Origin: Planctomycetota bacterium
GTDB lineage: Bacteria; Planctomycetota; Phycisphaerae; Sedimentisphaerales; Anaerohalosphaeraceae
Length of the DNA stretch: 42,944 nucleotides
NCBI GenBank assembly: GCA_019456225.1
Contig: VRUI01000044.1
Coordinates: 1-42,944, forward strand
Direction of reading: 5' to 3'
A model generated the notes under the pieces. That model had not been told where the DNA came from, ran no database searches, and saw only the letters and a program-made list of their open reading frames with translations. Below, in pieces: positions 3,302 through 42,883 of this stretch (the stretch's first letter is position 1; every line of letters begins with the position of its first letter). A program made the position numbers and the translations under genes.

Positions 3302-3340
3302 TTTTCCATTATACTATGTTTTAGTGAAGTGTAAAGCATC

Positions 3341-3361
3341 GGTCGTAAGTCGTCAGTCGGA
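3341..3361. repeat. 7-bp-period tract (unit like AGTCGTC)
   Basis: Heptamers GGTCGTA, AGTCGTC and AGTCGGA lie between the divergent radical SAM and apbE genes. The reverse complement of this unit family makes the longer tract at 24888-24922. Confidence 0.5.
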
Positions 3362-3383
3362 CAACTTAAATTGGATTTGAAAT

Positions 3384-4400: not shown

Positions 4401-4453
4401 GGGGTGAGGAGTAAAGGAGTTTGTGGGGTTTATTTTGGATTGTTGTGGTTTTT

Positions 4454-4474
4454 TGGATATTGGATATTCAAAAT
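4454..4474. repeat. 7-bp-period tract (unit TTGGATA)
   Basis: TTGGATA occurs twice and is followed in phase by TTCAAAA, between the convergent apbE and oxidoreductase genes. A second short tract (GTGAGGG, GTGAGGA, GTAAAGG) begins at the apbE stop codon, 4397-4417. Confidence 0.5.
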
Positions 4475-4502
4475 GAAACCCCATGTTTTTTTCCGGGCTT
4501 AC

Positions 4503-5852: not shown

Positions 5853-6156
5853 TAAAATACCTTTTTGTACATACTGGAAAAATAATATTGGTTTTTTCGG
5901 CCTTTTAGATGCCTATTTTATCTTCCAGACGCTGTTAATCAATCAAATATTGCAATTTTTGGGGTTTCCAATTGAAAATATGGCGGGAATTATTTGGAAT
6001 TGGCGGATTTTATGGGCGAAATAAGTCGAAATAATCTTGCTCACTGATCTCAGAGGTTTTTAGTTCCTCGTTGCAAAGGTCTGCTTTTTACGGTACAATT
6101 ATATAATAAGTTGATTTTACAGTTTTACTTGTCCGTATTAGTTACGGAGGCTAATT
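5853..6156. other. divergent intergenic region with one clear promoter
   Basis: This 304-bp A+T-rich gap separates the Tat oxidoreductase from the small-protein/nucleotidyltransferase pair. It holds the rightward promoter at 6071-6099 and no credible ORF. A possible weak leftward promoter (TTGATT, 16 bp, TAAAAT) lies at about 5920-5950. Confidence 0.5.
6071..6099 (+). promoter_or_regulatory. sigma70-type promoter for the nucleotidyltransferase pair
   Basis: TTGCAA and TACAAT are separated by exactly 17 bp. They lie about 58 bp upstream of the first start codon at 6157. Confidence 0.65.
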
Positions 6157-6366
6157 ATGAAAAAAAATACTTCTGTAAACATGGTTGATCGCAATATTGG
6201 AGTCCTTAAGCAGGCCGGTGAACCTGACCGTGATTTCGTTGAAGCGTCGCCAGAAGTTCTGTTGGGGTTCATGTGGGAACTAACTGCTGAGGTGTATTCT
6301 CTTAGGGGTGACTTTGATGCTGAACAAAGATTACAGCGAAATGTTACAAATCTTATCAAGCCATAA
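6157..6366 (+). CDS. small partner protein upstream of nucleotidyltransferase
   Basis: This 69-residue protein has a strong GGAGG ribosome binding site, and its C-terminal half contains MWELTAEVYSLRGDFDAEQR. As I recall, short proteins with a similar (M/V)W-x-LT-x-E-x-(Y/W)-LxG-xxDAE-xRL pattern commonly precede nucleotidyltransferases of the DUF6036/AbiEii-like type. The gene overlaps the next CDS by about 50 bp in another frame, so the two are translationally coupled. It may be a toxin-antitoxin-like partner or a chaperone for the enzyme; the sequence alone does not decide. Confidence 0.65.
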   Translation: MKKNTSVNMVDRNIGVLKQAGEPDRDFVEASPEVLLGFMWELTAEVYSLRGDFDAEQRLQRNVTNLIKP

Positions 6367-6763
6367 TGTCAAGTTCCTGGTTGTCGGTGCTTATGCAATG
6401 GGTGTGCATGGCTGCCCTCGTGCTACCGGTGATATTGACTTGTGGGTAATGGCCTCGGCGGAAAACTCCGAGAAAACATATAACGCCCTAAAGGATTTCG
6501 GTGCTCCGATGGCCCAACTCGACACCGAGACATTCAATAAACCAGGTGTAGTTTTTCAGATAGGCGTTGCTCCACGTAGAATCGATATACTAACCCGGAT
6601 TGACGGAGTGGAATTTGATCTGGCATATGATAAAAGAAATGAGATCGAAATTGCAGGAATGACGATACCTTTTATTTCATTAAAAGACCTTATCAAAAAC
6701 AAGCAATCCACAGGCCGTCCAAAAGATATACTAGATGCTGAAAACCTTTCAGAAGGAATTTAA
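6317..6763 (+). CDS. minimal nucleotidyltransferase (DUF6036/AbiEii-like)
   Basis: This 148-residue protein is of the minimal nucleotidyltransferase fold. The signature GAYAMGVHGCPRATGDIDLWV spans about 24-44 in slightly longer form and supplies the Gly loop, the HG-x-x-R-x-T element and the DxD metal site (D39-x-D41). A second acidic element, RRIDILT, lies near 94. I prefer the ATG at 6317 because AGGGG lies about 8 bp upstream; a GTG at 6308 is possible. It is coupled to the preceding small gene under one promoter. Such proteins are found as stand-alone enzymes and as members of AbiE/MenA-type toxin-antitoxin systems. The small size and missing C-terminal domain leave its role open. Confidence 0.75.
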   Translation: MLNKDYSEMLQILSSHNVKFLVVGAYAMGVHGCPRATGDIDLWVMASAENSEKTYNALKDFGAPMAQLDTETFNKPGVVFQIGVAPRRIDILTRIDGVEFDLAYDKRNEIEIAGMTIPFISLKDLIKNKQSTGRPKDILDAENLSEGI

Positions 6764-6871: not shown

Positions 6872-7753
6872 CTATGCTGTTTTTGCTTTTGGTTTTTTGC
6901 CTGGCTGGCGGTCGGCTGGTGCGTTTTTGCCTCTGCATACTATTACTCCGGTTGGACATTTTTCCATTGCCGCTTCGGTGTCCTCTGATGTCTCGTATTT
7001 TTCGTAGTCCATGCGGGCGAGGTTGTTGTCTATCGTAAACAACTCGCTTTTCTTTGTACACATCTTGCATGCTATGCAGCCGACCGTGCAGAATGCCCTG
7101 GTATTTTTGCCGGATTCTTTGCTCGAACAGGCTACGGTCATCATGTTTTCCTGGCCGAATGGAACCATCTCGATGAGGAATCTTGGGCATGCTTTTGCGC
7201 AGGCTCCGCAGCCGGTGCATTTTACGTAATCGACCGTGGCAAGCCTGTCGTCGACATGCAGTGCGTCGAACTTGCATGATCTTACGCAGTCGCCGTATCC
7301 CATGCAGCCGTACTTGCAGGCCTGGACGTTTGGTGCGGCGTTGACGGCTGTGCATAGAGGTATTCCGTCGTATTTTGCGTAGAAGGTTTTGTCGGCGGCG
7401 TGGCCTCGGCAGTGGATTACGGGTCTTACGAGTTTTCCGCCGTTGCTGATCTGGATGTTCATTATTCCTGCTACCGCGGCAGCGGTATCGGGGCCGCCCG
7501 GGGCACATTTGCCCAGAAGTTCCGGGTCGTCCACTACCGCTTTTGCGTATTGACCACAGCCGGCGAAACCGCATGCTCCGCAGTCAATATTCGGGAGAGC
7601 TTCGTGGATGGCTTCGATCTTCGGGTCTATAATAACCTTTAGCTTTATGCTGGCGACGAGCAGGACTATCGCGAAGCCTGTTCCAAGAGCGACGAGGGTC
7701 AGGCCGGCGAGAATTATGTTTTGTATAGATGCCAGGATCATTATTTGTGTCAT
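6872..7753 (-). CDS. rnfB: Rnf complex ferredoxin subunit RnfB
   Basis: RnfB is the electron-entry Fe-S subunit of the ferredoxin:NAD+ oxidoreductase (Rnf). It has an N-terminal membrane helix (about 8-38). The 4Fe-4S domain CX2CX4CX16C (Cys58, 61, 66, 83; DCGACGFAGC) follows. Then come ferredoxin-type clusters: CKYGCMGYGDCVRSC, CTGCGACAKACP and a further CTVGCIACKMC unit. At about 293 residues it is the longer, multi-cluster form. I chose the ATG at 7753; an in-frame TTG at 7783 adds ten residues without a better ribosome binding site. It is the last gene of the operon and is separated from rnfA by a repeat-filled 136-bp spacer. Confidence 0.95.
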   Translation of the reverse strand: MTQIMILASIQNIILAGLTLVALGTGFAIVLLVASIKLKVIIDPKIEAIHEALPNIDCGACGFAGCGQYAKAVVDDPELLGKCAPGGPDTAAAVAGIMNIQISNGGKLVRPVIHCRGHAADKTFYAKYDGIPLCTAVNAAPNVQACKYGCMGYGDCVRSCKFDALHVDDRLATVDYVKCTGCGACAKACPRFLIEMVPFGQENMMTVACSSKESGKNTRAFCTVGCIACKMCTKKSELFTIDNNLARMDYEKYETSEDTEAAMEKCPTGVIVCRGKNAPADRQPGKKPKAKTA

Positions 7754-7773
7754 ATGATTACCGTGTATTAAAT

Positions 7774-7801
7774 TTAAAATCAAAAATTAAAAATCAAAAT
7801 T
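7774..7801. repeat. 7-bp-period A+T tract next to hairpin repeat
   Basis: In-phase heptamers TTAAAAT, CAAAAAT, TAAAAAT and CAAAATT lie between the triple-hairpin repeat and the rnfB start. Confidence 0.5.
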
Positions 7802-7882
7802 AAGGGATCGCCTTTGGCGATGCTATTTTTATCAGCATGGGCACAGCCCATCCTACCATTATCCCTGCGCTTGCGCTTCGGG
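7791..7882 (-). repeat. triple-hairpin repeat, copy 1 (rnfA-rnfB spacer)
   Basis: This ~92-bp element is about 90% identical to 10937-11027. On the rnf strand it begins 7 bp after the rnfA stop codon with CCCGAAGCGCAAGCGCAGGG. It continues with ATGGGC/GCCCAT (3-base loop) and then ATCGCC/GGCGAT (3-base loop). Three successive hairpins with no ORF suggest an mRNA structure or processing element inside the operon. Confidence 0.75.
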
Positions 7883-7889
7883 TTTCTGT

Positions 7890-8480
7890 TTATCTTATCA
7901 TTCCTGCGAATCCCATGAAGGCCATTGTCAGGATTCCTGCTGTTATTAGTGTTATCGGTGCTCCCTGGAGGGCCTCGGGGACGTCTGAAAGCAGGAGGCT
8001 TTCGCGGATGCCTGCCATTATGCAGATGGCCATTGTAAAACCGATGCCTGCTCCGAAGCTCAGGACTACTGCTTCTACGAGACTTTCGATCTCCCAGAGG
8101 TTCAGGAATAGGCACAGCCCCATGATCGCACAGTTTGTCGTTATCAGCGGGAGGAACACGCCGAAGCTGTCGTACAGCGGCGGGAAGAATTTTCTTACGT
8201 ACATCTCGACGAGCTGGACGGCGCCGGCGATTACGAGAATGAAACAGACGAGCCTTAGAACCTGCAGGTTGTACTCCATGAGTATCATGTGGTCTATCAG
8301 CCAGGTGAGTGTTCCGCTAAGGGTGATTACGAATGTTACCGCACAACCCATGCCGAATGCCATGTCTATCCGGCCCGATACGCCGAGGTATGGGCAGATG
8401 CCGAGAAACTTCGTGAAGACGAGGTTGTTTACAACGACTACCGATATGAAACCAAGTACTAATGCTTGAAATGTATCCAT
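7890..8480 (-). CDS. rnfA: Rnf complex membrane subunit RnfA
   Basis: RnfA is a six-helix integral membrane subunit. With RnfE it forms the inverted pair that carries the membrane 2Fe-2S centre in the Rnf/Nqr core. Its 196 residues are the usual length. The family blocks NNLVFTKFLGICPYLGVS (about 19-36) and TTNCAIMGL (about 113-121) each contain the conserved Cys. The ATG at 8480 is the natural family start. It is flanked on both sides by repeat-containing spacers. Confidence 0.96.
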   Translation of the reverse strand: MDTFQALVLGFISVVVVNNLVFTKFLGICPYLGVSGRIDMAFGMGCAVTFVITLSGTLTWLIDHMILMEYNLQVLRLVCFILVIAGAVQLVEMYVRKFFPPLYDSFGVFLPLITTNCAIMGLCLFLNLWEIESLVEAVVLSFGAGIGFTMAICIMAGIRESLLLSDVPEALQGAPITLITAGILTMAFMGFAGMIR

Positions 8481-8490
8481 TATTTTAAAA

Positions 8491-8538
8491 TCCTAATTTC
8501 TAAATTCTAAATTCTAAACAAATTCAAAATTCGAATTG
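8491..8538. repeat. 7-bp-period tract (unit TTCTAAA), rnfE-rnfA spacer
   Basis: The tract reads TCCTAAT, TTCTAAA three times, CAAATTC, AAAATTC and GAATTGT, all in one 7-bp phase. It occupies most of the spacer between rnfE and rnfA. Confidence 0.65.
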
Positions 8539-8562
8539 TTTAATTTTCAAAACAGGTTGCGT

Positions 8563-9189
8563 TTATGCTTTCTTTTTGTTTATCAGGTTTACTGCTCCGA
8601 GCAGCAGACCCAGTGTTACGAATGCTCCTACGGGCATTGCCATTGCTGCCCATGGTGTGTACCATCCGCCGGTTTCGGCGTTTGCTAAAATTGTAATGTT
8701 GAGTACCTTGCCTGTTGAGATCAATTCCCGGATGCCTGCCAGTACCGCCAGGGTCAGTGTAAAGCCGATGCCGTTTCCGATTGCGTCGGTTATACTTACT
8801 ACTATACCGTTTTTGCTGGCACATGCTTCTGCGCGGCAGATGATCAGGCAGTTTACGATAATCAGTGGGATGAATGGGCCCAGTTTTGCGCTCATGTCAG
8901 GTAGATACGCTTTCAGTGCGAGGTCTGCGATAGTGACGAATACTGAGATCGTCAGTGTGAACATGAGGATTCGCAGATGCGGCTTTAGCAGGTTTCGCAT
9001 CAGGCTGATCACTATGTTCGAGCATATCAGTACGAAGAGTACGCTTGCGCCCATTGTCAGTGCGGCAGCGACGGTCGTGGTGACCGCAAGTGTCGGGCAC
9101 ATTCCGAGCAGCAGTGCGAAGACCGGGTTTTCCTTCCAGATGCCCGCGAAGAACGTTTGGCCTAATGATATTTGTTTGTCGTTTGCCAT
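8563..9189 (-). CDS. rnfE: Rnf complex membrane subunit RnfE
   Basis: RnfE is the second six-helix membrane subunit, homologous to RnfA in inverted topology. Its 208 residues are typical. The block ENPVFALLLGMCPTLAVT (about 16-33) and VNCLIICRAEA (about 111-121) hold the conserved Cys residues near the membrane 2Fe-2S site. The start codon directly abuts the rnfG stop codon at 9190, indicating translational coupling. Confidence 0.96.
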   Translation of the reverse strand: MANDKQISLGQTFFAGIWKENPVFALLLGMCPTLAVTTTVAAALTMGASVLFVLICSNIVISLMRNLLKPHLRILMFTLTISVFVTIADLALKAYLPDMSAKLGPFIPLIIVNCLIICRAEACASKNGIVVSITDAIGNGIGFTLTLAVLAGIRELISTGKVLNITILANAETGGWYTPWAAMAMPVGAFVTLGLLLGAVNLINKKKA

Positions 9190-9804
9190 TTATAAAAGGC
9201 CTTTCTCTTTCAAAACAGCCTTTACCTGGCTGATGTATGTATTGAATATCGATACCACAGCGTCGCTTGTAACCGTCGCTCCGCTTATGGCTATGATCTC
9301 GACGTCAGGATTGCCGTAGTCGCCTATCTTTGACAGGGTTAGTTCTTCTGCGGGAGTGCCTGGGAACTGGGTTACGAATTTGTGATTTTTTTTGCCGATC
9401 TTGTCGCCGAAGCCGGGGGTTTCGTTGCTGGAAAGAACGCCGAAACCTTTGATGGTCTCGAATTTTGCGTCGACAGCGATAACGAGTTTGATCTTGTCGG
9501 CGAAACCAGAACCGACTGCCTCGAAGGCCCAACCGATAGTATTTCCTGCTTCGTCTACACCTCTTTTGAGGCTTTTGACCTCTATGTCTTTGCCTTTTGC
9601 GGATTTAATTTTGATCGGTTTATCGCTGACGGTCTGGAAATCCGCGGCGCCTTCTACCATTGCACCTGCCAGATCGCTGAACTTTTTCGCCTGCTGCTCT
9701 TTGATCAGCGGGTCGAGGTATTCGTTTGTACCGGCAAGCAGAAGACCGAATGCGAGTGAGGCGACTATTAGGAGCCAGCTTTTTTCGATGAAATTCTTAA
9801 TCAT
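9190..9804 (-). CDS. rnfG: Rnf complex flavoprotein subunit RnfG
   Basis: RnfG is a periplasmic FMN-bearing electron carrier anchored by one N-terminal helix (about 10-27). Its 204 residues carry the FMN-binding domain, which ends in ISGATVTS; Thr177 of SGAT is the expected site of covalent FMN attachment by ApbE. The block ETPGFGDKI (about 128-136) is also diagnostic. Its start overlaps the rnfD stop by 8 bp, so the two are coupled. The ApbE encoded at 3384-4400 is the likely modifying enzyme. Confidence 0.95.
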   Translation of the reverse strand: MIKNFIEKSWLLIVASLAFGLLLAGTNEYLDPLIKEQQAKKFSDLAGAMVEGAADFQTVSDKPIKIKSAKGKDIEVKSLKRGVDEAGNTIGWAFEAVGSGFADKIKLVIAVDAKFETIKGFGVLSSNETPGFGDKIGKKNHKFVTQFPGTPAEELTLSKIGDYGNPDVEIIAISGATVTSDAVVSIFNTYISQVKAVLKEKGLL

Positions 9805-10915
9805 TTTTTTTGCCTCCTGAAGGGACGAGCTTGCACATTCTTTCGATGAGCGGGCTAAGTGCGTTCATCAGCAGTACCGCGAACATTACGCCTTCCGGGT
9901 AGCCGCCGATGTTTCTGATGAGGACTATTACTACTCCGATCCCGATTCCGAAAATCCACATTCCTTTTCTGGTCAACGGTGCGGTTACCGGGTCGGTTGC
10001 TATAAAGATCGCACACATTAACATGCCGCCGCTTAATAAGTGGAATAATGGGTCGGCGTATTTTTCGGGGCTGATGGCCCAGAAGATGGCTGCGAACGCG
10101 GCGGCTGAACCAAGAACGGCGGTTGGGATTACATAGGTTATCGTTTTTCTAAACAGCATATATGCCCCTCCGAGGAGCATTGCCAGTGCACTTGTCTCGC
10201 CGAGACATCCGCCGACGCCGCCAAGAAAGTTTGCATTTCTAAGTGAAGCGGTGGCGCTGATGCTGCCGGCAGCAGTTTGTGCAGCCTTATCGATCTGAGC
10301 CTTATACTTTGTGTCTGATTGCCCGTTGTCTGCCTTTTCGAGTTTGTTGACGGCTTTTGCCTGGGCCTGCTTTGCCTTTATGGCTCCTTTGGACCATGCC
10401 AGCGGGGTTGCCTGGGTGACAGCGTCTGCATCGGCTGCGACGGATACTTCGATCTTTGGCATATCGGCGTCTATCGTTGCCGGTACCATCCAGGTTGTCA
10501 TCAACCCGCCGAGGCTTGCGGCCATGAATGTTCTGGCGACCATCGCGGGGTTGAAGATGTTCGAACCGAGGCCGCCGAATACCATTTTGCCGATGGCGAT
10601 AGCGACTGCACCGCCGATAGCTGCCGCCCAGATGGGAATCGAAGCCGGAAGCGAGAAGGCGAGGATAATGCCTGTTACGACGGCGCTTAGATCGCCTAGA
10701 GTGTTTGGCTTTTTGCGGACGATGTTGCAAATCCACTCGGTTAACATGCATGATATTACGCATGCCGCGATGACAAATACCGCCTGGAGGCGGAAGAATA
10801 TTACAGCCGCGACCATCGGAAAAGCAAGACCGATCACGACGTCGAGCATGATGCTGCGGGTCGAGTGAGCCTTACTTATATGCGGACTTGGTGAAACTGT
10901 TATGTTGTCTAACAT
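9797..10915 (-). CDS. rnfD: Rnf complex membrane flavoprotein RnfD
   Basis: RnfD is a multi-helix subunit (372 residues) with covalently bound FMN, related to NqrB. Diagnostic parts are the N-terminal SPSPHISKAHSTRSIM and the DAVTQATPLAW motif, where Thr170 of ATPL is the expected flavinylation site. A long Ala/Lys-rich periplasmic insertion (about 175-220, including KAKQAQAKAVNKLEKADNGQ) follows the flavin site and is larger than I recall for most RnfD proteins. The start at 10915 is the family-typical one. The upstream spacer holds hairpin-repeat copy 2. Confidence 0.94.
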   Translation of the reverse strand: MLDNITVSPSPHISKAHSTRSIMLDVVIGLAFPMVAAVIFFRLQAVFVIAACVISCMLTEWICNIVRKKPNTLGDLSAVVTGIILAFSLPASIPIWAAAIGGAVAIAIGKMVFGGLGSNIFNPAMVARTFMAASLGGLMTTWMVPATIDADMPKIEVSVAADADAVTQATPLAWSKGAIKAKQAQAKAVNKLEKADNGQSDTKYKAQIDKAAQTAAGSISATASLRNANFLGGVGGCLGETSALAMLLGGAYMLFRKTITYVIPTAVLGSAAAFAAIFWAISPEKYADPLFHLLSGGMLMCAIFIATDPVTAPLTRKGMWIFGIGIGVVIVLIRNIGGYPEGVMFAVLLMNALSPLIERMCKLVPSGGKKND

Positions 10916-10936
10916 ATATTTTCGTTCCTGTTTTTT

Positions 10937-11027
10937 AAATCAAAATTATGGAATCGCCTTCGGCGATGCGATTTTATCAGCATGGGCACAGCCCATCCTA
11001 CCGCTATCCCTGCGCTTGCGCTTCGGG
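10937..11027 (-). repeat. triple-hairpin repeat, copy 2 (rnfC-rnfD spacer)
   Basis: This is the second copy of the element at 7791-7882, in the same orientation. It begins 7 bp after the rnfC stop codon, and the three hairpins occur in the same order (C-rich, ATGGGC/GCCCAT, ATCGCC/GGCGAT). Differences fall mostly in loops and linkers: a TTT versus TTC loop, and CATTA versus CGCTA linkers. Confidence 0.75.
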
Positions 11028-11034
11028 CTTTTAT

Positions 11035-12390
11035 TTACTTAGGCATTCTTTTTTTTTCGCGCGCTACCAGTATTTTTCCTGTGTTTATGTAGCCCTTTAT
11101 TTCTATGTTTGCCGGGCAGATGTAGCTGCAGCAGCCGCACTCTATGCATGTGTTCATGTGGTACTGCTGGGCGATATCAAAATGGCCGAACTTTACTGCG
11201 TGTGCGATTTTTGTCGGATTAATATTTGCCGGGCAGACGTCGAGACACCTTCCGCACCTTATACAGGCGGTTTCGCGGTTCTCAAATTTTGCGCGGGTGA
11301 TAGATTTTTTGGTCAGGACGGTTATCGCTCCACCTGTCTTTGTTATCGGGGTTGAAAGGTCTGCGATAGCGAATCCCATCATCGGTCCGCCGAGCAGGAC
11401 TTTTGAGGCGCCCTCTGTAAGGCCGCCGCACAGGTCGATGAGTTCGCTGACCGAGGTGCCGACCGGGACATAGAAATTGCCGGGATTGTTTATTCCTTCG
11501 CCTGTTACGGTTACGACTCTGTGGGTGAGGGGCTCGTTGAATACTACCGCTTCGGCGATCGCGGCACAGGTGCAGACGTTAATGACCAGCACGCCGATCA
11601 TTGGCGGGATTCCGCCGGCTGGTACGTCTTCGTCCAGGATCGACTTGATGAGCTGGCGTTCGCCGCCCTGGGGGTATTTGGTTTTGACGGGGCAGACTTC
11701 GATGCCTTCACAGCCTTTGCCGTTTGCCAGTGCTTCTTTGACGGTTGCAATCGCTTTGGGTTTGTTGTCTTCTATACCAATATATACGTTATCGCATCCG
11801 GAGATCTGGCGGACGAGCTTTACTCCTGCGATGAACTGGTTTGTCCATTCTAGCATTACGCGGTAGTCGCAGGTGATGAACGGCTCGCACTCGCAGGCGT
11901 TTACAATGATCGCTCTTTTTTCGGGTTTTGCGCCGGGGTCGACCTTTACGCGGGTGGGAAAACCGGCTCCGCCCATGCCGACTATGCCGGCGTTGCGGAT
12001 TGCGTCGCCGATCTGGGCGGCTGAGTATTGTTTTTCGTCGAAATTTTCGTCGAATTTTTCCGGGCATGGGAATTTTTGTGTGTCGGTCTCGGGGTCTACG
12101 TCGATAACTATCGCCATTTCACGGCCGAGAACGGGGTGAGACTGCAAAACTATGTCTTTAACGGTTCCGCTTACGGGGGAATGTACCGGGGCAGAAACGA
12201 ACGCGTCAACGTCGCCGATCAACTGGCCGGCGGTGACTGTGTCTCTTTTGGCTACGAGGGGTTTGCAAATTGCACCGATGTGCTGGCTGAGCATTACGGC
12301 GACCTGTTTTGGATGGGCGAGCGGGGTGATTTCGCAATTTTCCGTGAGCTCTTTGTAGTCAGGCGGGTGAACACCGCCTGGAAACGTCAT
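11035..12390 (-). CDS. rnfC: Rnf complex NADH-binding subunit RnfC
   Basis: RnfC is the peripheral NADH/FMN subunit, 451 residues. The N-terminal GGVHPPDYKELT and the barrel-sandwich block APVHSPVSGTV (about 67-77) are typical. A GxGxxG-type flavin/NADH region follows (GMGGAGFPTRVKV, about 138-150). Two 4Fe-4S ferredoxin motifs close the protein: CIRCGRCLDVCP and CIECGCCSYICP. It is the second gene of the operon, 8 bp after the RseC-like gene. Confidence 0.96.
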   Translation of the reverse strand: MTFPGGVHPPDYKELTENCEITPLAHPKQVAVMLSQHIGAICKPLVAKRDTVTAGQLIGDVDAFVSAPVHSPVSGTVKDIVLQSHPVLGREMAIVIDVDPETDTQKFPCPEKFDENFDEKQYSAAQIGDAIRNAGIVGMGGAGFPTRVKVDPGAKPEKRAIIVNACECEPFITCDYRVMLEWTNQFIAGVKLVRQISGCDNVYIGIEDNKPKAIATVKEALANGKGCEGIEVCPVKTKYPQGGERQLIKSILDEDVPAGGIPPMIGVLVINVCTCAAIAEAVVFNEPLTHRVVTVTGEGINNPGNFYVPVGTSVSELIDLCGGLTEGASKVLLGGPMMGFAIADLSTPITKTGGAITVLTKKSITRAKFENRETACIRCGRCLDVCPANINPTKIAHAVKFGHFDIAQQYHMNTCIECGCCSYICPANIEIKGYINTGKILVAREKKRMPK

Positions 12391-22780: not shown

Positions 22781-24853
22781 CTAGCTAAACAGCGATCCGA
22801 CCTGGTAAACTATTACTGTTATAATATATGCTATTGTCGTCAGCCCCGTGAACTGGAATATCGCCCACTTCCAGGAATTTGTTTCTCGTCTGCATATCGC
22901 CAGGGTTGCCACGCATGGCGCGCTTATCAGACAAAACAGCATCACGCAAAAACCCTGCAGCGGCGTATAATTATCCCGCAGTTTTGTGCGGAGCGCATCC
23001 ATCCCCTCTCCGGAATCGCCGACAGAAAAGACGATCCCCATCTGCGCAACGAATACTTCCTTAGCCGCCAGCGCCCCGACAAGTGCCGTCCCGATGCGGT
23101 AATCAAAACCCATCGGTTCAATGAGCGGCTCCATCGCAGTACCGGCCCTGCCGGCAATAGACGTTCGCAGCTGCAACTGCTGTGCCTGTTTTTCATCGAG
23201 GCCGGCCAGTTTATCGGCGCCTGCTTTCGGGTAACTCGTCAATGCCCACATTACTATCGAGATCGCCAGGATCACCGTGCCTGCTTTTTTCAGGTACAGC
23301 CAGCTTCGTTCCCACATGTGTATCAGCAAACCTCTGGCCGTTGGCATTCTATAGGGCGGCAGCTCCATAAGGAACACGCCCGTCTCGCCGCGCAGCAAAG
23401 TTTTTCTCAGTATCAGTGCAAGCAGGATAGCCAGGGACACACCTATCACATATATCAGCCACATCATAAATGCCTTTTGCCCGCTGGACGTAAAGAACGC
23501 CGGGATTATCAGGGCGTATATCGGCAGCCTCGCTCCGCAGCTCATCAGCGGCAGTATCATGATCGTCGCCAGGCGGCTTTTGCGGTCGTCGAGAATCCTT
23601 GTTCCCATGATCGCAGGCACCGAACAGCCGAACCCGATCATCATCGGTATAAAGCTTCGCCCGTGCAGGCCGACCTTCTTCATGACACGATCCATCAAAA
23701 ATGCCGCGCGCGCCATATATCCGGAATCTTCCAGCACCGCGATACCGAGGAACAACAGAATGATATTCGGTAAAAACACAACCACCCCGCCGACTCCGCC
23801 GATGATACCGTCAACTATCAGTGACCTCAGAGGACTTTCAGAACCTTGTTCCCAAAATCCGGACACGAATCCGCCAAGCCATCCGAAACCGTTTTCAATA
23901 AGTTTCATCATGGGTTCGCCGGCTGAAAAGGTCATTTTAAAAACCAAAAACATCATCAGAAGAAATATCGGCAACCCGAAGAGCCGGTTCAGCAGTACCA
24001 TGTCTATAAGATCGCTGATCTGGTGGCGCTGCTGGACTGTGTGCTTGACGGCTTGTTCGTAAACGCCGGACACAAAACCATAACGCTTTTCGGCGACGAT
24101 TACCTCCGGGGCATCGCCGTATATCTTTTCGATATTTTTAATACCTCCAGCGGTTGCGTCGAGAACTTCCTGTTTGTGGCTCAGGGCGATGATCTCCTTG
24201 TCCTGTTCGAGGAGTTTAAGGCTGAGCCAGCGCCTGCCGTATTTCTCGGCAAGGGCGTGTTCCATATCCACAAGCGGCTCGATCTTTGCAAGTTCTTTTT
24301 CGATGTCCTCGCCGTAGGTAACTCTTACACGGTCTGGCTGGGCAGATGGCTCTTCTTCGGCTTTTGCGATTATCGCTTCAAGCAGCTCATTTATACCCTT
24401 GCCCTTGGAGCCGACCGTCGAAATTGTATGGGCGTTAAAAAATGTTCCGATCTTTTCGTTGTCAAACAGGTAGCCCTGCTTTTTTGCAAGATCGCTCATG
24501 TTCAAAGCCAGCACCAGCGGAACGTTCAACTCCAGCAACTGGGTAGCCAGGTATAGGTTTCTTTCGAGGTTGCTCGAATCGACAACAGCTACTACGACAT
24601 CGGGATGTTCGCTGACGATAAAGTCGCGCGCGACGATCTCTTCGATCGAGTACGCCGTCAGGCTGTATGTGCCGGGAAGGTCTACGAAAAGAATTTCATA
24701 ACCATTGTATTTGCAGGTGCCTTCTTTTTTCTCGACGGTTACGCCGGCATAGTTGCCGACATGCTGGCGCGCTCCTGTCAAAGCATTAAAGATAGTCGTC
24801 TTGCCGCTGTTAGGGTTACCGGCAAGCGCGACTGTTAGTTTCTTCTTTTTCAT
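22781..24853 (-). CDS. feoB: ferrous iron transporter FeoB
   Basis: FeoB takes up Fe(II) across the inner membrane using an N-terminal GTPase. The 690 residues show G1 GNPNSGKTT (about 12-20), G3 DLPG (about 58-61), G4 NMSD (about 118-121), then the helical GDI region. The membrane part has the two Gate motifs with their Cys residues: GFGCSVPAIMGTR, and CGARLPIYALI together with MSCG. No FeoA or FeoC domain is attached; FeoA is instead fused to the upstream regulator. It is the second gene of an iron operon, after a 66-bp spacer that contains a 7-bp-period tract. Confidence 0.97.
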   Translation of the reverse strand: MKKKKLTVALAGNPNSGKTTIFNALTGARQHVGNYAGVTVEKKEGTCKYNGYEILFVDLPGTYSLTAYSIEEIVARDFIVSEHPDVVVAVVDSSNLERNLYLATQLLELNVPLVLALNMSDLAKKQGYLFDNEKIGTFFNAHTISTVGSKGKGINELLEAIIAKAEEEPSAQPDRVRVTYGEDIEKELAKIEPLVDMEHALAEKYGRRWLSLKLLEQDKEIIALSHKQEVLDATAGGIKNIEKIYGDAPEVIVAEKRYGFVSGVYEQAVKHTVQQRHQISDLIDMVLLNRLFGLPIFLLMMFLVFKMTFSAGEPMMKLIENGFGWLGGFVSGFWEQGSESPLRSLIVDGIIGGVGGVVVFLPNIILLFLGIAVLEDSGYMARAAFLMDRVMKKVGLHGRSFIPMMIGFGCSVPAIMGTRILDDRKSRLATIMILPLMSCGARLPIYALIIPAFFTSSGQKAFMMWLIYVIGVSLAILLALILRKTLLRGETGVFLMELPPYRMPTARGLLIHMWERSWLYLKKAGTVILAISIVMWALTSYPKAGADKLAGLDEKQAQQLQLRTSIAGRAGTAMEPLIEPMGFDYRIGTALVGALAAKEVFVAQMGIVFSVGDSGEGMDALRTKLRDNYTPLQGFCVMLFCLISAPCVATLAICRRETNSWKWAIFQFTGLTTIAYIITVIVYQVGSLFS

Positions 24854-24887
24854 ATTTGTTTATTCCCGAAAAGCCGGTGCAACACCT

Positions 24888-24922
24888 CGACTTACGACTG
24901 ACGACTTACCACTTACGAGTTA
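24888..24922. repeat. 7-bp-period tract (unit CGACTTA)
   Basis: Five in-phase heptamers, CGACTTA, CGACTGA, CGACTTA, CCACTTA and CGAGTTA, fill the spacer between the dtxR-type gene and feoB. The tract overlaps the stop codon of the regulator at 24920-24922. Confidence 0.7.
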
Positions 24923-25693
24923 TTTATTCCATTCAACCTGTATGTTTTTTGCTTCTTCTTTTCTGATCGACAGGTGGTAACCTTTTACCTTTACCTCTAT
25001 AGGGTCGCCGAGGGGCGCCACTCTTTCAACCTCGATTACCGATCCCCTTGAGATTCCCATCTCTACAAATCTTTTTGTCACTGAAGATTTGTTTGTGACC
25101 TTCCTGACGACACACTTGTCGCCCTTGTTGCCGGCGACCACATCCAATAAAGTAGTAAGCGTTGACTTGGACGTCATCTTTTCTTTTTCGCTTTGGAGAA
25201 TTTTTATCCTGGTGTCGATGCATGCCGTGCAATCGGATTTTGTTTTTGGCGGGTCAGTGAAGCATCGCTTGTGAAACTGGCCGATCCAGTTATCGCCGCA
25301 TCGTGGACAGGTCTGGACAAACTCGGTAAAGGAGATGAGCCTTTCGACAAGGTCGTCGGGGATGACGTGCTCTATCTCGCAGGCACCCTGACGGGCGATG
25401 GACTTTTCAGCGCCGAGGATGTCGACGAAGAAATCCTCGAGAACCTCGTGCTTACGGATTATGCGCTCGGCCTCTTTGAGACCTTTAGCGGTCAGGGTGA
25501 TAACTTCGTAGGGCTTGTAGTTGATTAGCCCGCTTTTGGCAAGGGCCTGAAGGGCAGTAGTGACCGAACCGGCTTTGACACCGAGGCTGCCAGAGATGTC
25601 CTTGGCGCGGACGCCGCCCTTGTCTGATACTATATTAAATATAGTCTCCAGATAGTTTTCCAGAGACGCACTTAATTGATTCGATTTAACCAT
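24920..25693 (-). CDS. DtxR/IdeR-type iron regulator fused to Cys module and FeoA domain
   Basis: This 257-residue metal-dependent repressor has a winged helix-turn-helix (about 8-70) and then a DtxR dimerisation/metal domain. The ligand set HEVLED (His82, Glu83, Glu86) and CEIEH (Cys105, Glu108, His109) has the Cys typical of iron-sensing DtxR/IdeR, where manganese-sensing MntR has Glu. An inserted cluster follows, CX2C-X11-C-X10-CX2C (Cys129, 132, 144, 155, 158), which could hold Zn or an Fe-S centre. The C-terminus (about 180-255) is a FeoA/SH3-like domain. It heads the feoB operon, and its promoter overlaps a palindrome, so autoregulation is likely. Confidence 0.88.
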   Translation of the reverse strand: MVKSNQLSASLENYLETIFNIVSDKGGVRAKDISGSLGVKAGSVTTALQALAKSGLINYKPYEVITLTAKGLKEAERIIRKHEVLEDFFVDILGAEKSIARQGACEIEHVIPDDLVERLISFTEFVQTCPRCGDNWIGQFHKRCFTDPPKTKSDCTACIDTRIKILQSEKEKMTSKSTLTTLLDVVAGNKGDKCVVRKVTNKSSVTKRFVEMGISRGSVIEVERVAPLGDPIEVKVKGYHLSIRKEEAKNIQVEWNK

Positions 25694-35725: not shown

Positions 35726-38700
35726 TCACTTCACCGTCGGCGTTACAAGTATAATCATATTGTTTTTAACAGGCTTCTTTTTAATCCCAAGCCACCTGCG
35801 ATGCACCCTTGGATCCTTTATATCTTTGAAGGATATTTTAGTTCCCCCGTGGTCGTAGTCATTGTTAGTATTACCATCCTTATCGAGCAACTTCACACCT
35901 GCAATTATCAATGTTTTACCTCGTGGAATCTCAAACCGCCCCCTCAGTTGTGTCTTTAGCAATTCAGGAACATTATATGTCTTGCCGGATTTATGCTTAC
36001 GCTCCTGTATCGATACATCATCTATCATTAAGCTGTAAAAAGTAATATCAACATTACCGCTGTCTTTCAACACCTTAGGCAACAGGTCAAGTTTAATCCC
36101 TGTCTCAAGTGTTTTTGTAACGGCCTCAAATGTCTTACCTTTATTGCCTTCAACTTGCTTGTACCCGGACACATACTTGTTTTCTTTGACAATAGAAATA
36201 TGCCCCGGCTCACCATCGACAACACTTATCTTCGGAGCGGTCAGTATATGGAATTCACTACTAGTACTCGATGCTCGTCTAAGAAACTCAAGTATTAGAT
36301 CGCCATCGTCAACGTACTTAAATACAATATCATCCGAATCGTCGACGCCCATATGCCGAAGTATTTCAGCTGCTTTTTCATCCTCCATCGGTTTACTGCC
36401 TTCAAAGAATTCGTATGAAACCTCCGGCCAGAAATATGGTTTTTCCATCTTTTTGACAGCTATATTAATAGCATTTAATCCGATATCCTCTGTAAAATTT
36501 TCATTTGCAATAATAAATCGAGTTTCAATAGAAACCTGTTGATCACCTGGCTTAACGGGCAAACCTTTTAAAACCTTATGTGGATCACCCTTAAACGGAC
36601 CATAATAATAAGCTGAACCTGAACCGAACAGGCCGCGTTGAAGAACATAAAACACATTCTTCTTCGGCAAGTAATATACTGCCCCATCATCGGCGATGTA
36701 AATTTCCTCTACCTTATCACGAATATAATATTTCTGATAACCGGCTTCCTGCGGCTCAAAAAAATCGGTAATCTCATAAGGCTTGTAAGTTACAGCAGCC
36801 TTAGAAAGATCAAGCCCGTAAAACATAAGCGATTTCCCGCTGGCCTTTACCTTACTTTTTTCAAGTTTAATGACTTTATCGTTTTCATCAAAAAATATAT
36901 TGTAAAAATGCGGATCATCCCTTTGGGCATGAAATTCCCATTTTTTCCCTCCATCCATTTCCTTTTGATTGTGCCCAAGCCTGCCATTAACTTGCTTTTT
37001 TGTCATGCCGATCCGTATGAATGTCCAGTTCCTGTCATAACTACTCAAAAACTTCATCCAGGGACCATCCACATGAAACACTTTGCCGTCATCATCAAAA
37101 TAAAAGTCAAACACATAACTTGGAGCAGGGCTATAAGCTATATGATCGTCGCCGCCTATATCTGGATACATAGGTCTCCCCAAAATACCTATTACCTGTT
37201 TCTTTGAAAGCCTGCGCTTAAGGCAAATTTTCGCTGCAGCCTCGACGTTCTTAGGGTCTCTCCATGTATGCAGAATTTTTTCTTCTTCTGTCCAGTCAGC
37301 GGTTTCACCCTTAGCTTTTAACTCTTTCTCCATTTTTTCCAGATACGCCTCAACCTTCTCATGAACAGATGGAGCATGATGGACCATAACTATACTTGTT
37401 CCAAATCTCCTAACCGTGGCTTTAAACTCGTCATCTATCTTTACTGTTGGGAAAATATTATTTTTTATATGAGTAACTATTTCCTTCGTAAGTACCACTG
37501 CCGCTTCCACATCAGCATTTGAGATTTTATCATCCCTGAGAAATTGAATGTTCGCCAATCTCAATAATTCTCTAATATCATAACTCCTGAACTCCGCCTT
37601 AGTTTTAGCAAACTTAATTACCTTGTCGTTTTCATCGAAGTATATGTTATAGTAATGCGGATCATCTCTTTGAGCGTGGAATTGCCATTTTTTCCCACCG
37701 TCCATTTCTTTTTGATTATGCCCAAGCCTAGTATTGACTTGCTTCTTTGTCATGCCAACCTTTATAAACGCCCAGTTCCTATCATAACTACTCAAAAACT
37801 TTATTCCAGGGCCATCTATAAGAATAACTTTGCCTTTATCGTCGTAGTAGATATGTATAACTTGAGAATAAAAAACCGTATAAGCTGACACATTAGGGGA
37901 TGAATGCTTCGAGTCAGGCTCCCCAAGAAGCGCTTCAATTTCTGTTTTTAACATTCCTGCTTTTAGATATGGCATTAGGATCTCTGCTGCTTTATATCGA
38001 AAACCCATTCGGCCTTTTTCAGATTGGAAATCTTTTATAGCCGCTTCAACTTCTGAACTGAATTTAGATTCCTTCTTCACCTCAGTTTTGTCATTGTCAA
38101 TAACACTATCATTCTCATTATTATCGCGTGCTGTCAACACACACCCAACCGGCAGCGCAAACATGGCAAGCAATATAATCGTAATAAGCGCAAACACCCC
38201 GCACCTCGCATAAAACTTCTTCCCAGGCCGCATAATAGTTTTCAGCCTGTCCTCAATATTTTTTGCAGGCCCGGCGACGGCAAGCGAAGGAACCGGTATG
38301 TTAGATTCATACTCGCGTGTCAAAGTATCTATAATAGCATTGCCATAGTCACGCGGCACACTTTTCAACTTCGCAATAGCCGCCTCATCGCAGCACTTCT
38401 CCCGCTCGCGCCGAACCATAGTATTAGCGATCCAGACAAGCGGATGAAACCAAAACAACCCCTGGGCGACGATCTGCAAAACATTAACCCCGGCGTCGAA
38501 CCTGCGAACATGCGCAAACTCATGCATAAGTATCCCACGCTGATCCCCAACACTTCCGCACTCGCCAAAATTACCCGGCACATAAACGCTCCCCCGCAAA
38601 ATCCCCCAGACAAAAGGCTGACCGATCCCATCGATCTGCCAGACATTAATTCCATCATCGCCGGCAACACAAATATCAAGCTCCGCGACCCGCCGCAAAG

Positions 38701-39154
38701 AACGCAACCGCCGGTTAAGCCGCCACGCCCGAAAACAAACACCCACCAAAAACAATACCGATCCAAAAGCCCAAACAATGCCCACCCACTCAATAGTTTC
38801 GATCTCAGCAAGGCGATCCATAAAAGAAGGTTCATAAGGTATCGCAGCAACAGGCTCAAAATCAGTAAGGTCGGCATGAAGACTAACACCGGTACTTACT
38901 GCATAAGGCTCAGCAACAAATTCCGGCTGTGCGGCAGCAATTACAATTTCCTTCTCAGGCAAAACCGCAAGCGAAACTTTCATGACAGAGGGAAAAATAC
39001 ACTTGGCAATAACCAGCCCCCAAAGCAAATACCGAACATGCGAACTGGCCCGCCGAAGCAAAAAACACAATAACCCGACCACGCCAAACAAAACCGCAAT
39101 CTGCAAACTCTGATCAATCAAATAATCCGCAACAGCTCCAAACATAATATCCAT
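35726..39154 (-). CDS. BlaR1-type M56 peptidase fused to BamE-like repeats and a secretin-like domain
   Basis: This 1142-residue protein has an N-terminal M56/BlaR1 membrane peptidase (about 1-340). It has helices near 15-35, 45-62 and 122-142, the zinc motif HEFAH (211-215), downstream EREKCCDEAA, and a last membrane helix at about 319-341. The remaining ~800 residues should be periplasmic. They contain BamE/SmpA-like units (GMxKxx-x-LG motifs near 400, 467, 650 and 716) with a nearly duplicated 63-residue block. A C-terminal secretin-type domain (about 874-1142) follows. Its cues are VSIETRFIIANENFTEDIG, LTAPKISVVDGEPG, GIKLDLLPKV, IPRGKTLIIAGV and NMIILVTPTV. BlaI lies 63 bp upstream, so it is probably the sensor-protease of that repressor. 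There is no penicillin-binding sensor domain. Confidence 0.85.
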   Translation of the reverse strand: MDIMFGAVADYLIDQSLQIAVLFGVVGLLCFLLRRASSHVRYLLWGLVIAKCIFPSVMKVSLAVLPEKEIVIAAAQPEFVAEPYAVSTGVSLHADLTDFEPVAAIPYEPSFMDRLAEIETIEWVGIVWAFGSVLFLVGVCFRAWRLNRRLRSLRRVAELDICVAGDDGINVWQIDGIGQPFVWGILRGSVYVPGNFGECGSVGDQRGILMHEFAHVRRFDAGVNVLQIVAQGLFWFHPLVWIANTMVRREREKCCDEAAIAKLKSVPRDYGNAIIDTLTREYESNIPVPSLAVAGPAKNIEDRLKTIMRPGKKFYARCGVFALITIILLAMFALPVGCVLTARDNNENDSVIDNDKTEVKKESKFSSEVEAAIKDFQSEKGRMGFRYKAAEILMPYLKAGMLKTEIEALLGEPDSKHSSPNVSAYTVFYSQVIHIYYDDKGKVILIDGPGIKFLSSYDRNWAFIKVGMTKKQVNTRLGHNQKEMDGGKKWQFHAQRDDPHYYNIYFDENDKVIKFAKTKAEFRSYDIRELLRLANIQFLRDDKISNADVEAAVVLTKEIVTHIKNNIFPTVKIDDEFKATVRRFGTSIVMVHHAPSVHEKVEAYLEKMEKELKAKGETADWTEEEKILHTWRDPKNVEAAAKICLKRRLSKKQVIGILGRPMYPDIGGDDHIAYSPAPSYVFDFYFDDDGKVFHVDGPWMKFLSSYDRNWTFIRIGMTKKQVNGRLGHNQKEMDGGKKWEFHAQRDDPHFYNIFFDENDKVIKLEKSKVKASGKSLMFYGLDLSKAAVTYKPYEITDFFEPQEAGYQKYYIRDKVEEIYIADDGAVYYLPKKNVFYVLQRGLFGSGSAYYYGPFKGDPHKVLKGLPVKPGDQQVSIETRFIIANENFTEDIGLNAINIAVKKMEKPYFWPEVSYEFFEGSKPMEDEKAAEILRHMGVDDSDDIVFKYVDDGDLILEFLRRASSTSSEFHILTAPKISVVDGEPGHISIVKENKYVSGYKQVEGNKGKTFEAVTKTLETGIKLDLLPKVLKDSGNVDITFYSLMIDDVSIQERKHKSGKTYNVPELLKTQLRGRFEIPRGKTLIIAGVKLLDKDGNTNNDYDHGGTKISFKDIKDPRVHRRWLGIKKKPVKNNMIILVTPTVK
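36866..37054 (-). repeat. internal coding duplication, copy 2 (residues 701-763)
   Basis: This encodes a 63-residue block identical to the first copy at 56 of 63 residues, including GMTKKQVN and RLGHNQKEMDGGKKW. It is part of the BamE-like region. Confidence 0.8.
37613..37801 (-). repeat. internal coding duplication, copy 1 (residues 452-514)
   Basis: This is the first copy of the 63-residue block. Seven substitutions separate it from copy 2, mostly conservative (A/T, K/R, V/I, Y/F), which points to a recent or gene-converted duplication. Confidence 0.8.
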
Positions 39155-39217: not shown

Positions 39218-39589
39218 TCATTTCCCGGTAATATCCCGAAGCTTATCAATATCATCAGCATCGATCTTGCCATGCTCGGCAAGATACTGGGCCAATCCGG
39301 CGCAGCTGCCATCAAACAGTTTATCAACAAAGACCCCCAAAGCCGACCCGACAACCTCGTCCCGCTCGGCAACGGGGTAAAACACATGCGCCTTACCCAC
39401 TACATCGTGGCCGATATACCCCTTCTTCTCAAGCCGCCTAAGCAAAGTCTGCACGGTAGCATAAGCGATCGACCGCCCTTCCGGAAGCCTGCCGCAAACA
39501 TCCTGAACGCTCCCCCGCTCAAGCTCCCATAATATCACCATAATTTCTGTTTCAGCCCCGCTCAATGCCCGAAGATCACATTTATTCAC
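39218..39589 (-). CDS. BlaI/MecI/CopY-family repressor
   Basis: This 123-residue winged-helix repressor shows the family layout. The recognition region runs from LSGAETEIMVILWEL (about 9-23) through ATVQTLLRRLEKKGYI (about 44-59). A C-terminal dimerisation helix set follows, which BlaR1-type proteases cleave. The start is GTG at 39589, six bases after GGGAG; an overlapping ATG is out of frame. It is the first gene of an operon with the M56-secretin protein. Two TACANNTGTA operators overlap its promoter, indicating autoregulation. Confidence 0.93.
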   Translation of the reverse strand: MNKCDLRALSGAETEIMVILWELERGSVQDVCGRLPEGRSIAYATVQTLLRRLEKKGYIGHDVVGKAHVFYPVAERDEVVGSALGVFVDKLFDGSCAGLAQYLAEHGKIDADDIDKLRDITGK

Positions 39590-39628: not shown

Positions 39629-39662
39629 TACAACTGTACAACAAGTATATCGTACATTTGTA
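39629..39662. promoter_or_regulatory. paired BlaI operators TACANNTGTA
   Basis: TACAACTGTA (39629-39638) and TACATTTGTA (39653-39662) are 24 bp apart centre to centre and match the BlaI/MecI consensus. On the minus strand a TATACT -10 box (39644-39649) lies between them, with a weak TGGCAA -35 box at 39667-39672. Bound repressor would cover the spacer and the start site. Confidence 0.8.
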
Positions 39663-39764
39663 CAAGTTGCCATTAAAAAAAAATAATTTCCCAAAAAAAT
39701 TGCCCACCCACAACACAACTAGCAATAAGTCTTTACTATAACTAAACTTAGCAACAGCAACCCC

Positions 39765-41737: not shown

Positions 41738-42016
41738 GAGCGTATTCCTTTGTAAGTGGGCGGTCCCACGCGTTTTTCTGATAATGCACTTTTTCCATAT
41801 ATCCGGGTAATAGATACCATCTGATATCGGCATAAAAAAGAGGGCTGATAAGGTGAAATTTGCTCTTAATCGTCAAAATGCGCGGGTAATAGGCGGACGC
41901 AATGCCGCCAGGCGGCAAAAAAAGGGAAAAAAGTCACAATTTCTGTCCCCAAAAGTTGTTCTGTTGCTTCTTTATTGTAGAAGCTATAATAAAGATTGGT
42001 TGAAAGGACCCCGAAA

Positions 42017-42883
42017 ATGCCGGCAACAGTAAAAGAAATTGATCTCTTAAATAAATGTCTTAAGGGCGACGCTAAGGCTTTTGGGGTGATTGTATCGAAT
42101 TATCAGGAACTTGTTTGTGCGATCACCTACAGCGGCGTAGCCGATATCAATAGCAGTGAGGAACTGGCACACCAGACCTTCATAAATGCATGGAATAAGC
42201 TCTCACAGCTAAATGACCTTTCCAAATTTCGTCCCTGGCTGTGCTCTATAGCCCGCAATCTTGTGAAATCTTCCATTAGAACGAAAAAACGGGATATCAT
42301 TGCAAAGGCCAAACCTATGGAAAATATAAACGACACTGCTGCCGCTGAGTCCGGTCCGCTCGAATCAGCTATCAAAAAAGAACATCAGGAACTTGTAAGT
42401 GATGCGATCCGCCATATCCCGGAAAAATATCGAGAGCCACTGGTATTGTTTTACCGTCAGCGCCTCTCTATAAAACAAATCGCAGAGTCGCTTGACATGT
42501 CCGAAGAAACCGCTAAGAAACAGCTTCAGCGTGGTCGCAAAATGATAAAAGAGCAACTCAATTCTATCTTCGAGGAAACTCTTTCTGCCACCGGTCCTAA
42601 AAAGGCATTCACTACTGCCGTCATGACATCGGTCGCAGGCATCGCGTTAAAAGGCACCGGCGCAGCCGCTGCCGCTGTAGTAACAACAACTGGAGTCTCA
42701 GCCGCAACAGGGACGACAATAACAACAATAATGAGCACAGTTACTGCCAAGATAGTTGCAGCAGCAGCGGTGGTGGTAATTGGTATCGGCGGGGCGACCG
42801 CTTACAAACAGATTACCAAGGATGGCCCGGGAGAAGATATCGTTAAATCTTCAAGTACAATAAATAAGGTTCTCATCCAATAA
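42017..42883 (+). CDS. ECF-type sigma factor with C-terminal membrane tail
   Basis: This 288-residue RNA polymerase sigma factor has region 2 (about 20-85; NSSEELAHQTFINAWNKL and FRPWLCSIARNLVKS) and region 4 (about 128-180; IPEKYREPLVLFYRQRLS and IKQIAESLDMSEETAKKQL). It is followed by a ~100-residue extension: a low-complexity Ala/Thr/Val region (about 195-240), then a membrane helix (about 244-262, AAAAVVVIGIGGATAYK) and a short tail that would be outside the cytoplasm. The ATG at 42017 follows AAGGA; an upstream TTG at 41996 is less likely. TATAAT at 41985-41990 may be its -10 box. No anti-sigma factor is visible before the window ends. Confidence 0.87.
   Translation: MPATVKEIDLLNKCLKGDAKAFGVIVSNYQELVCAITYSGVADINSSEELAHQTFINAWNKLSQLNDLSKFRPWLCSIARNLVKSSIRTKKRDIIAKAKPMENINDTAAAESGPLESAIKKEHQELVSDAIRHIPEKYREPLVLFYRQRLSIKQIAESLDMSEETAKKQLQRGRKMIKEQLNSIFEETLSATGPKKAFTTAVMTSVAGIALKGTGAAAAAVVTTTGVSAATGTTITTIMSTVTAKIVAAAAVVVIGIGGATAYKQITKDGPGEDIVKSSSTINKVLIQ

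Follow-up and report, generated by a model that had tools for sequence, protein, structure and literature searches.

A probably autoregulated operon with an exchangeable exposed half

The window analysed here, positions 1-42,944 of contig VRUI01000044.1 of a Planctomycetota bacterium (GCA_019456225.1; Sedimentisphaerales), carries an operon comprising blaI, which encodes a BlaI/MecI-type repressor, and a gene for a fusion protein (35726-39154, minus strand) in which a BlaR1-type M56 membrane zinc peptidase is followed by BamE-like units and a secretin-like domain. Comparison with related genomes suggests that this operon is probably an autoregulated BlaI-M56 switch, held as one copy per genome and equipped with an exchangeable periplasmic binding module. 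At this orthologous locus, which recurs in an order of environmental planctomycete-type bacteria, the repressor, the operator and the protease are fixed, while the exposed half of the protease has been exchanged in nearly every species. BlaR1, a membrane protease whose usual task is to turn on antibiotic-resistance genes, is known almost solely as a beta-lactam sensor, and the locus offers a natural domain-swap series for asking how the BlaR1 protease receives a signal from outside.

The exchange was seen in a comparison of 24 orthologous operons. Their protease halves could be aligned in all 276 pairs, with a median identity of 52%, while the exposed halves of the same operons, mostly unrelated, gave a BLAST match in only 47 of the 276 pairs, 21 of which aligned over most of the shorter sequence. 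Exposed halves of orthologous operons range from 102 to 1600 residues and carry domains as diverse as ankyrin repeats, PD40 propellers, leucine-rich repeats (LRRs), CBM9 with LamG, beta-helix, CarboxypepD_reg, AhpC-TSA, Peptidase_MA and secretin. Secretin-like domains occurred in seven of the 29 orthologous M56 loci linked to the operator described below.

A tandem operator marks the orthologous loci

CopR-CopY repressors are copper-responsive and are not known to be paired with an M56 protease. They are related to BlaI and share with it the operator core TACANNTGTA (PMC7253601), to which both boxes upstream of blaI in the window, TACAAATGTA and TACAGTTGTA, conform. The extended operator, TACAnnTGTA-CGATAT-n-TACAnnTGTA, was detected in 31 of the 161 genomes of the order, exactly once in each, and its reversed control in none. 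In 29 of these 31 genomes the operator is directly followed by blaI (50-58% identical) and then by the M56 gene; one of the two remaining sites lies at a contig end, and the other is without an intact blaI. Since TATNNT follows CGA in 29 of the 31 operators, the two boxes flank a likely -10 site.

In the 4.45-Mb source genome, only two places have the exact operator pair: the operon of the window and, on contig C11, another, more distant blaI-M56 pair. As these genomes hold no further copy of the exact orthologous operator, the principal direct output would be the operon itself, and the circuit looks closed in that no other exact operator was found besides that of the second pair. The first-pass annotation of the window, made from its sequence alone, had raised the possibility that BlaI targets include envelope genes; exact tandem operators stand only before the two blaI-M56 operons, and none was found at envelope genes. 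A similar economy is known from C. thermocellum, where the regulators BlaI_0696 and BlaI_1845 have inverted repeats in two ordered pairs at the operon that encodes each, and hardly any targets elsewhere or none (PMC8457756). The ordered paired repeats before the repressor's own operon and the scarcity of further targets are common to both systems, but the box sequence differs, and C. thermocellum belongs to the Firmicutes.

The operator of the second pair (G000:C11:23562-23595; L096) keeps the same 14-bp box spacing, lacks CGATAT and accompanies a 2069-aa frame with DUF3887 and lipocalin-like parts; cross-talk between it and the BlaI of the window is possible. A two-mismatch tandem operator also lies within the window (6094-6127), between genes at 4503-5852 (minus) and 6308-6763 (plus), which is about the chance level for 4.45 Mb. 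At another locus (L019:1207-4881; the same in L239), BlaI and M56 are fused in a single open frame that comes immediately after the tandem operator, so that the repressor is joined to its own protease.

The protease half has the features of an M56 antirepressor

The fusion protein is encoded by a single 1142-codon frame with an ATG start, and the plus strand over the same stretch contains many stops. This uninterrupted frame, with its M56, BamE-like and secretin-like parts, had been correctly recognised in the first-pass annotation, which did not name the strand. By its features the protein is an M56 antirepressor: it has the M56 profile (Pfam Peptidase_M56, E 5e-40, residues 13-307), HExxH and ExxxD-type motifs, four transmembrane (TM) helices predicted from hydropathy (residues ~12-37, 43-65, 118-141 and 316-340), an adjacent BlaI and an operator at the shared promoter. 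H211, E212 and H215 are each conserved in at least 95% of the orthologues. It is not a beta-lactam BlaR1, since the NCBIfam model blaR1_generic matched only residues 31-372, far below its cut-off (90.5 bits versus 400). Pfam detected no transpeptidase domain in the 1142-aa protein. Earlier suggestions that the regulator is of the BlaR1 type with a BlaI partner (Penicillinase_R, E 1.5e-26), and that its sensory half is of other than the beta-lactam type, therefore hold; the exposed half is not a penicillin-binding domain.

The likeness to the BlaR1/MecR1-BlaI/MecI systems of S. aureus and B. licheniformis extends to the four-helix membrane protein with cytoplasmic M56 gluzincin motifs, the adjacent BlaI-family repressor, the paired operator boxes at the promoter and the placement of a C-terminal half after helix 4. 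In contrast to BlaR1/MecR1, no penicillin-binding (class D-like) sensor domain was found, its place being taken by BamE-like, secretin-like or other modules; no beta-lactamase gene was seen adjoining the operon, and the operator is confined to blaI-M56 operons. In S. aureus BlaR1 the zinc site is on the cytosolic side and the C-terminal sensor is external; the loop EL1 touches this sensor and is moved out of place when a beta-lactam binds (PMC9834060). EL1 is the least conserved stretch of the protease half in our alignment (mean majority residue 0.31, versus 0.55-0.92 elsewhere), which may reflect co-variation with the exchanged module. Release of the exposed half as a lipoprotein was considered as well, as LPVGC at the end of TM helix 4 resembled a lipobox, and was rejected; relatives read VPTTxALT at this place.

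The secretin-like domain has lost its membrane-entry segment

The C-terminal domain matched Pfam Secretin (PF00263; E 1.7e-9; score 37.9 bits, cut-off 27.5) over residues 963-1088 (profile positions 3-123 of 169), and the call was backed by the NCBIfam MshL/PilN/PilQ models and by a PDB sequence search (BfpB, E 2.6e-4). With an AlphaFold2 model of the domain, the best 28 VIA-align matches were all secretins (Z 8.6-11.7; the next match scored 5.3), as were all 13 Foldseek matches at E <0.001. The overall confidence of the model is low (mean pLDDT 56.6), as only five sequences were usable, and the TM-scores are low too (0.2-0.3); the fold is therefore judged mainly from the ranking of the matches, their Z-scores and the profiles.

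The segment that lies between the last two strands, a hallmark of secretins, is degenerate here. It reads VPILSKIPILGRFFSNRSEVEDREVLLILVKP in L107, a secretin-type protein that stands free in the same genome, and KDIKDPRVHRRWLGIKKKPVKNNMIILVTP in the fusion protein, where the amphipathic membrane-entry loop of the VPxLGDIPxxGxLF type is replaced by KDIKDPRVHRRWLGIKK. All seven other (free) secretin matches of the source genome keep the motif. This amphipathic segment is conserved in every structurally characterised secretin and is thought to contact the outer membrane first (PMC6532946). Since the membrane-entry segment is lost, the secretin-like module of the fusion protein is most likely soluble and not a pore. 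No Secretin_N/NolW (N0/N1 ring) domain was detected by Pfam in the fusion protein at E-values up to 10; a weak likeness to the part preceding the L107 secretin domain was seen at residues 578-608. Compared with BfpB, PilQ, GspD, InvG and phage pIV, the fusion protein shares the fold and the sequence profile of the C-terminal domain, but has a degenerate membrane-entry segment and no detected Secretin_N, and is part of an inner-membrane protease. The claim of a full series of secretin cues made in the first-pass annotation fails: fold and profile hold, but the amphipathic segment is degenerate, and Pfam gave no Secretin_N/NolW match.

The loss is a general tendency of M56-fused domains in the order. 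The strict amphipathic motif was present in one of 43 fused domains versus 25 of 34 others, and a lenient motif, with repeats removed, in five of 34 fused versus 26 of 35 free domains. Eight of the nine motif-negative free entries turned out to be fragments or probable pieces of M56 proteins, including partial views of fused proteins (L131, L135, L136 and L126) and two entries of two domains each, one at a contig end (L161) and one with a probable frameshift (L184); L171 was entered among the fused positives by eye. After this curation, the motif was found in six of 34 fused and 26 of 27 free domains (Fisher p 2e-10, a guide only, because the sequences are related and hence not independent). 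A later look at four fused domains from loci with the operator (L219, L221, L222 and L237) showed the motif in none of them.

More than 20 further proteins, found in a survey for the same architecture such as the first-pass annotation had proposed, join M56 and a secretin-like domain in one frame; nearly all belong to the order, and one is from a Planctomycetaceae genome. On the M56 tree these proteins form several separate groups, so there must have been more than one origin or exchange of the pairing. In several relatives a single chain holds two to four secretin-like domains, an arrangement that suits soluble modules in tandem better than ring subunits. Recurrent use of secretin domains, in many cases arranged in tandem, as modules that probably form no pore is evident here, so a Secretin profile match without the amphipathic segment should not be taken as a secretion system. 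A search of journals open without subscription gave no paper on M56-secretin fusions and no survey of planctomycete M56 sensors. In L184, an M56-secretin frame (2-1969) is followed by an overlapping frame (1944-5222) with two more secretin-like domains, probably owing to a frameshift that is either an assembly error or real.

The BamE-like units

Pfam BamE (PF04355) matched two stretches of the fusion protein (E 2.5e-8, 34 bits versus a cut-off of 23.2). This part consists of two copies of a double unit, ~60% identical, on either side of a middle domain, and hence of four half-units. When one unit was modelled (pLDDT 76), BamE chains topped the structural list (Z 6.7), closely followed by a type VI secretion system (T6SS) immunity protein, OsmE and the beta-lactamase inhibitor protein BLIP (Z 5.6), and the best Foldseek match was a BLIP-like protein (E 4.3e-4). 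The equivalog model for the lipoprotein of the BAM (outer-membrane assembly) complex, PRK11548, gave 17.9 bits against a cut-off of 93. The BamE-like fold by itself carries no information on the BAM machine; BLIP and further proteins outside BAM share it. The tandem alpha-beta-beta-beta units and the above-threshold Pfam match are common to the fusion protein and the BamE/SmpA and BLIP fold proteins, but here four half-units lie in one chain, which is not a lipoprotein and shows no sign of BAM partners; unlike the lipoprotein subunit of the BAM complex, they come after TM helix 4 of an M56 protein. The tandem BamE/SmpA-like motifs noted at first are thus real, as profile and copies attest, but their link to outer-membrane assembly is weakened by a fold common to BLIP and non-BAM proteins.

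Free-standing BamE-like copies in other genomes are small membrane-anchored proteins. In G071:C628 (L174:2095-4500), three or four small genes stand in a row, each with an N-terminal TM helix and a BamE-like unit, and three of them are 38-42% identical to the unit of the window.

A possible mechanism and its alternatives

The operon, the operator, the conserved protease, the exchange of exposed halves and the loss of the segment can be read from the sequences themselves; the topology follows homology with BlaR1. On this basis, BlaI bound to the two TACAnnTGTA boxes around the -10 site would repress its own operon. The M56 protein would consist of a four-helix membrane part, a zinc peptidase on the cytoplasmic side and, in the periplasm, a half of 800 residues that was built in the source species from BamE/BLIP-like units and a secretin-derived domain. 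Gain or loss of a target by the periplasmic half may be felt by the peptidase by way of EL1 and helix 4; the peptidase would then cut itself and BlaI, so that the operon is induced. Such a switch would be self-amplifying, and its exposed module may combine the roles of sensor and effector. A bolder version is conceivable, although we would not call it probable: in this self-amplifying one-per-genome switch, the exposed half may have been replaced repeatedly while the order diverged, as in fast-evolving recognition receptors, with secretin modules recruited time and again, stripped of their membrane-entry segment and used to recognise envelope or foreign surface components.

Several points weigh against this model. 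We infer repression by BlaI, cleavage, ligand binding or any other role of the exposed half, and the absence of further targets; the periplasmic location of the C-terminus is predicted from homology and hydropathy only. A recognisable amphipathic segment is kept in six of the 34 fused domains, so its loss is not universal. At up to three mismatches, the operator scan gave fewer sites than the reversed control, and a wider BlaI regulon was rejected as a candidate on that count; operators weaker than the exact motif are therefore indistinguishable from chance, and other BlaI targets may exist. Finally, most of the genomes compared are draft metagenome assemblies.

The first-pass annotation had proposed that the sensory half monitors outer-membrane protein or secretin assembly. 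On this reading, true secretin subunits that pile up unassembled would be reported by the degenerate domain, which would bind them edge-to-edge; the domain has a true secretin fold, closest to the free L107 of the same genome, and a soluble decoy would be expected to give up membrane entry and retain the strands between subunits. We nevertheless regard this as unlikely, given the unrelated exposed domains (ankyrin, LRR, propeller, lectin-like) of orthologues at the same operator, the two to four secretin-like domains per chain, which suit tandem beads over ring subunits, the lack of an exact operator at envelope genes and the wide occurrence of the BamE-like fold in non-BAM proteins; the proposal thus finds no support here. 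Somewhat less doubtful is the idea that the exposed half is an effector and not a sensor, namely a periplasmic adhesin or scaffold freed by self-cleavage after another cue, such as an envelope signal at the TM region, has induced the operon. The restriction of the operator to blaI-M56 promoters and the very large, variable exposed halves made of binding domains are in its favour, but the exposed C-terminus of BlaR1 is a sensor (PMC9834060), and EL1 varies like the module that it would contact.

The exposed half might also sense cell wall or beta-lactamase, the tandem BamE-like units acting as a BLIP-like binder of beta-lactamase or a penicillin-binding protein (PBP), in keeping with the Foldseek result and the likewise tandem build of BLIP. 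This is very improbable: BamE scores as high or higher, the fold is widespread, the free-standing homologues have no visible beta-lactam link, and the resemblance is at the level of fold, from a model with a pLDDT of 76. A real outer-membrane secretin pore tethered to the inner-membrane protease would explain the above-threshold Secretin profile, yet is slightly more improbable still in view of the degenerate amphipathic segment, the failure of Pfam to find Secretin_N, the fused four-helix anchor and the several secretin modules per chain in relatives. The contig comes from a draft genome, and an assembly artefact joining unrelated genes might be suspected; the chance of this is negligible, as the frame is uninterrupted, the operon context is conserved, and the M56-secretin pairing recurs in more than 20 proteins from independent genomes. 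The autoregulated switch with an exchangeable binding module remains our preferred reading.

Features of the locus and other observations

Table 1. Features of the blaI-M56 operon and its promoter region in the window
Feature	Position	Strand	Basis or remark
M56-BamE-secretin fusion protein, 1142 aa	35726..39154	-	~60 bp downstream of blaI, same direction
Secretin-like C-terminal domain, residues ~870-1142	35729..36547	-	Pfam match 963-1088, fold
Degenerate segment, residues ~1097-1132, reads KISFKDIKDPRVHRRWLGIKK	35759..35866	-	Place of the amphipathic VPxLGDIPxxGxLF loop in free secretins; alignment, motif survey, pLDDT <50
~100-aa module, residues 771-870	36545..36844	-	Recurs in other proteins of the order
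BamE-like unit 2, residues ~650-776	36827..37207	-	60% identity to unit 1
Middle domain, residues 520-640	37235..37597	-	Weak likeness to segment preceding the L107 secretin domain, 48% over 31 aa
BamE-like unit 1, residues ~383-520, two alpha-beta-beta-beta repeats	37595..38008	-	Pfam; model pLDDT 76; BamE Z 6.7, BLIP Z 5.6
BlaR1-type M56 membrane zinc peptidase, residues 13-307	38234..39118	-	Pfam, hydropathy
EREKCCDE, residues 250-257, third zinc ligand and Asp	38384..38407	-	Alignment
HEFAH zinc motif, residues 211-215	38510..38524	-	Alignment
blaI, BlaI/MecI (Penicillinase_R) repressor, 123 aa, GTG start	39218..39589	-	Pfam PF03965, E 1.5e-26; 50-58% identity to BlaI at orthologous loci
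Tandem operator TACAAATGTA-CGATATACTTGTTG-TACAGTTGTA, two CopY/BlaI-type boxes 24 bp apart	39629..39662	-	Sequence; conserved upstream of orthologous blaI, 29 genomes
Promoter-like site ATGGCA-18-TATACT, -10 hexamer between operator boxes	39644..39673	-	Consensus scan; such matches are frequent by chance

The ~100-aa module between the second BamE-like unit and the secretin-like domain is also the C-terminus of another M56-secretin protein (L152, 41%), and occurs in several otherwise unlike proteins of the order (L152, L175-L181) with 28-53% identity. A PADLOC search for a link to defence systems gave nothing above noise, and a search of a viral collection yielded no confirmed relative. Elsewhere in the window, a run of genes on the minus strand (6872-12390) resembles, by eye from the translations, the Rnf electron-transport complex (B, A, E, G, D, C). 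A FeoB-like transporter lies beside a DtxR-type regulator that apparently ends in a FeoA-like domain (22781-25693), and an ECF-type sigma factor at 41996-42883 appears to bear a C-terminal TM segment and a short tail, both judged by eye.

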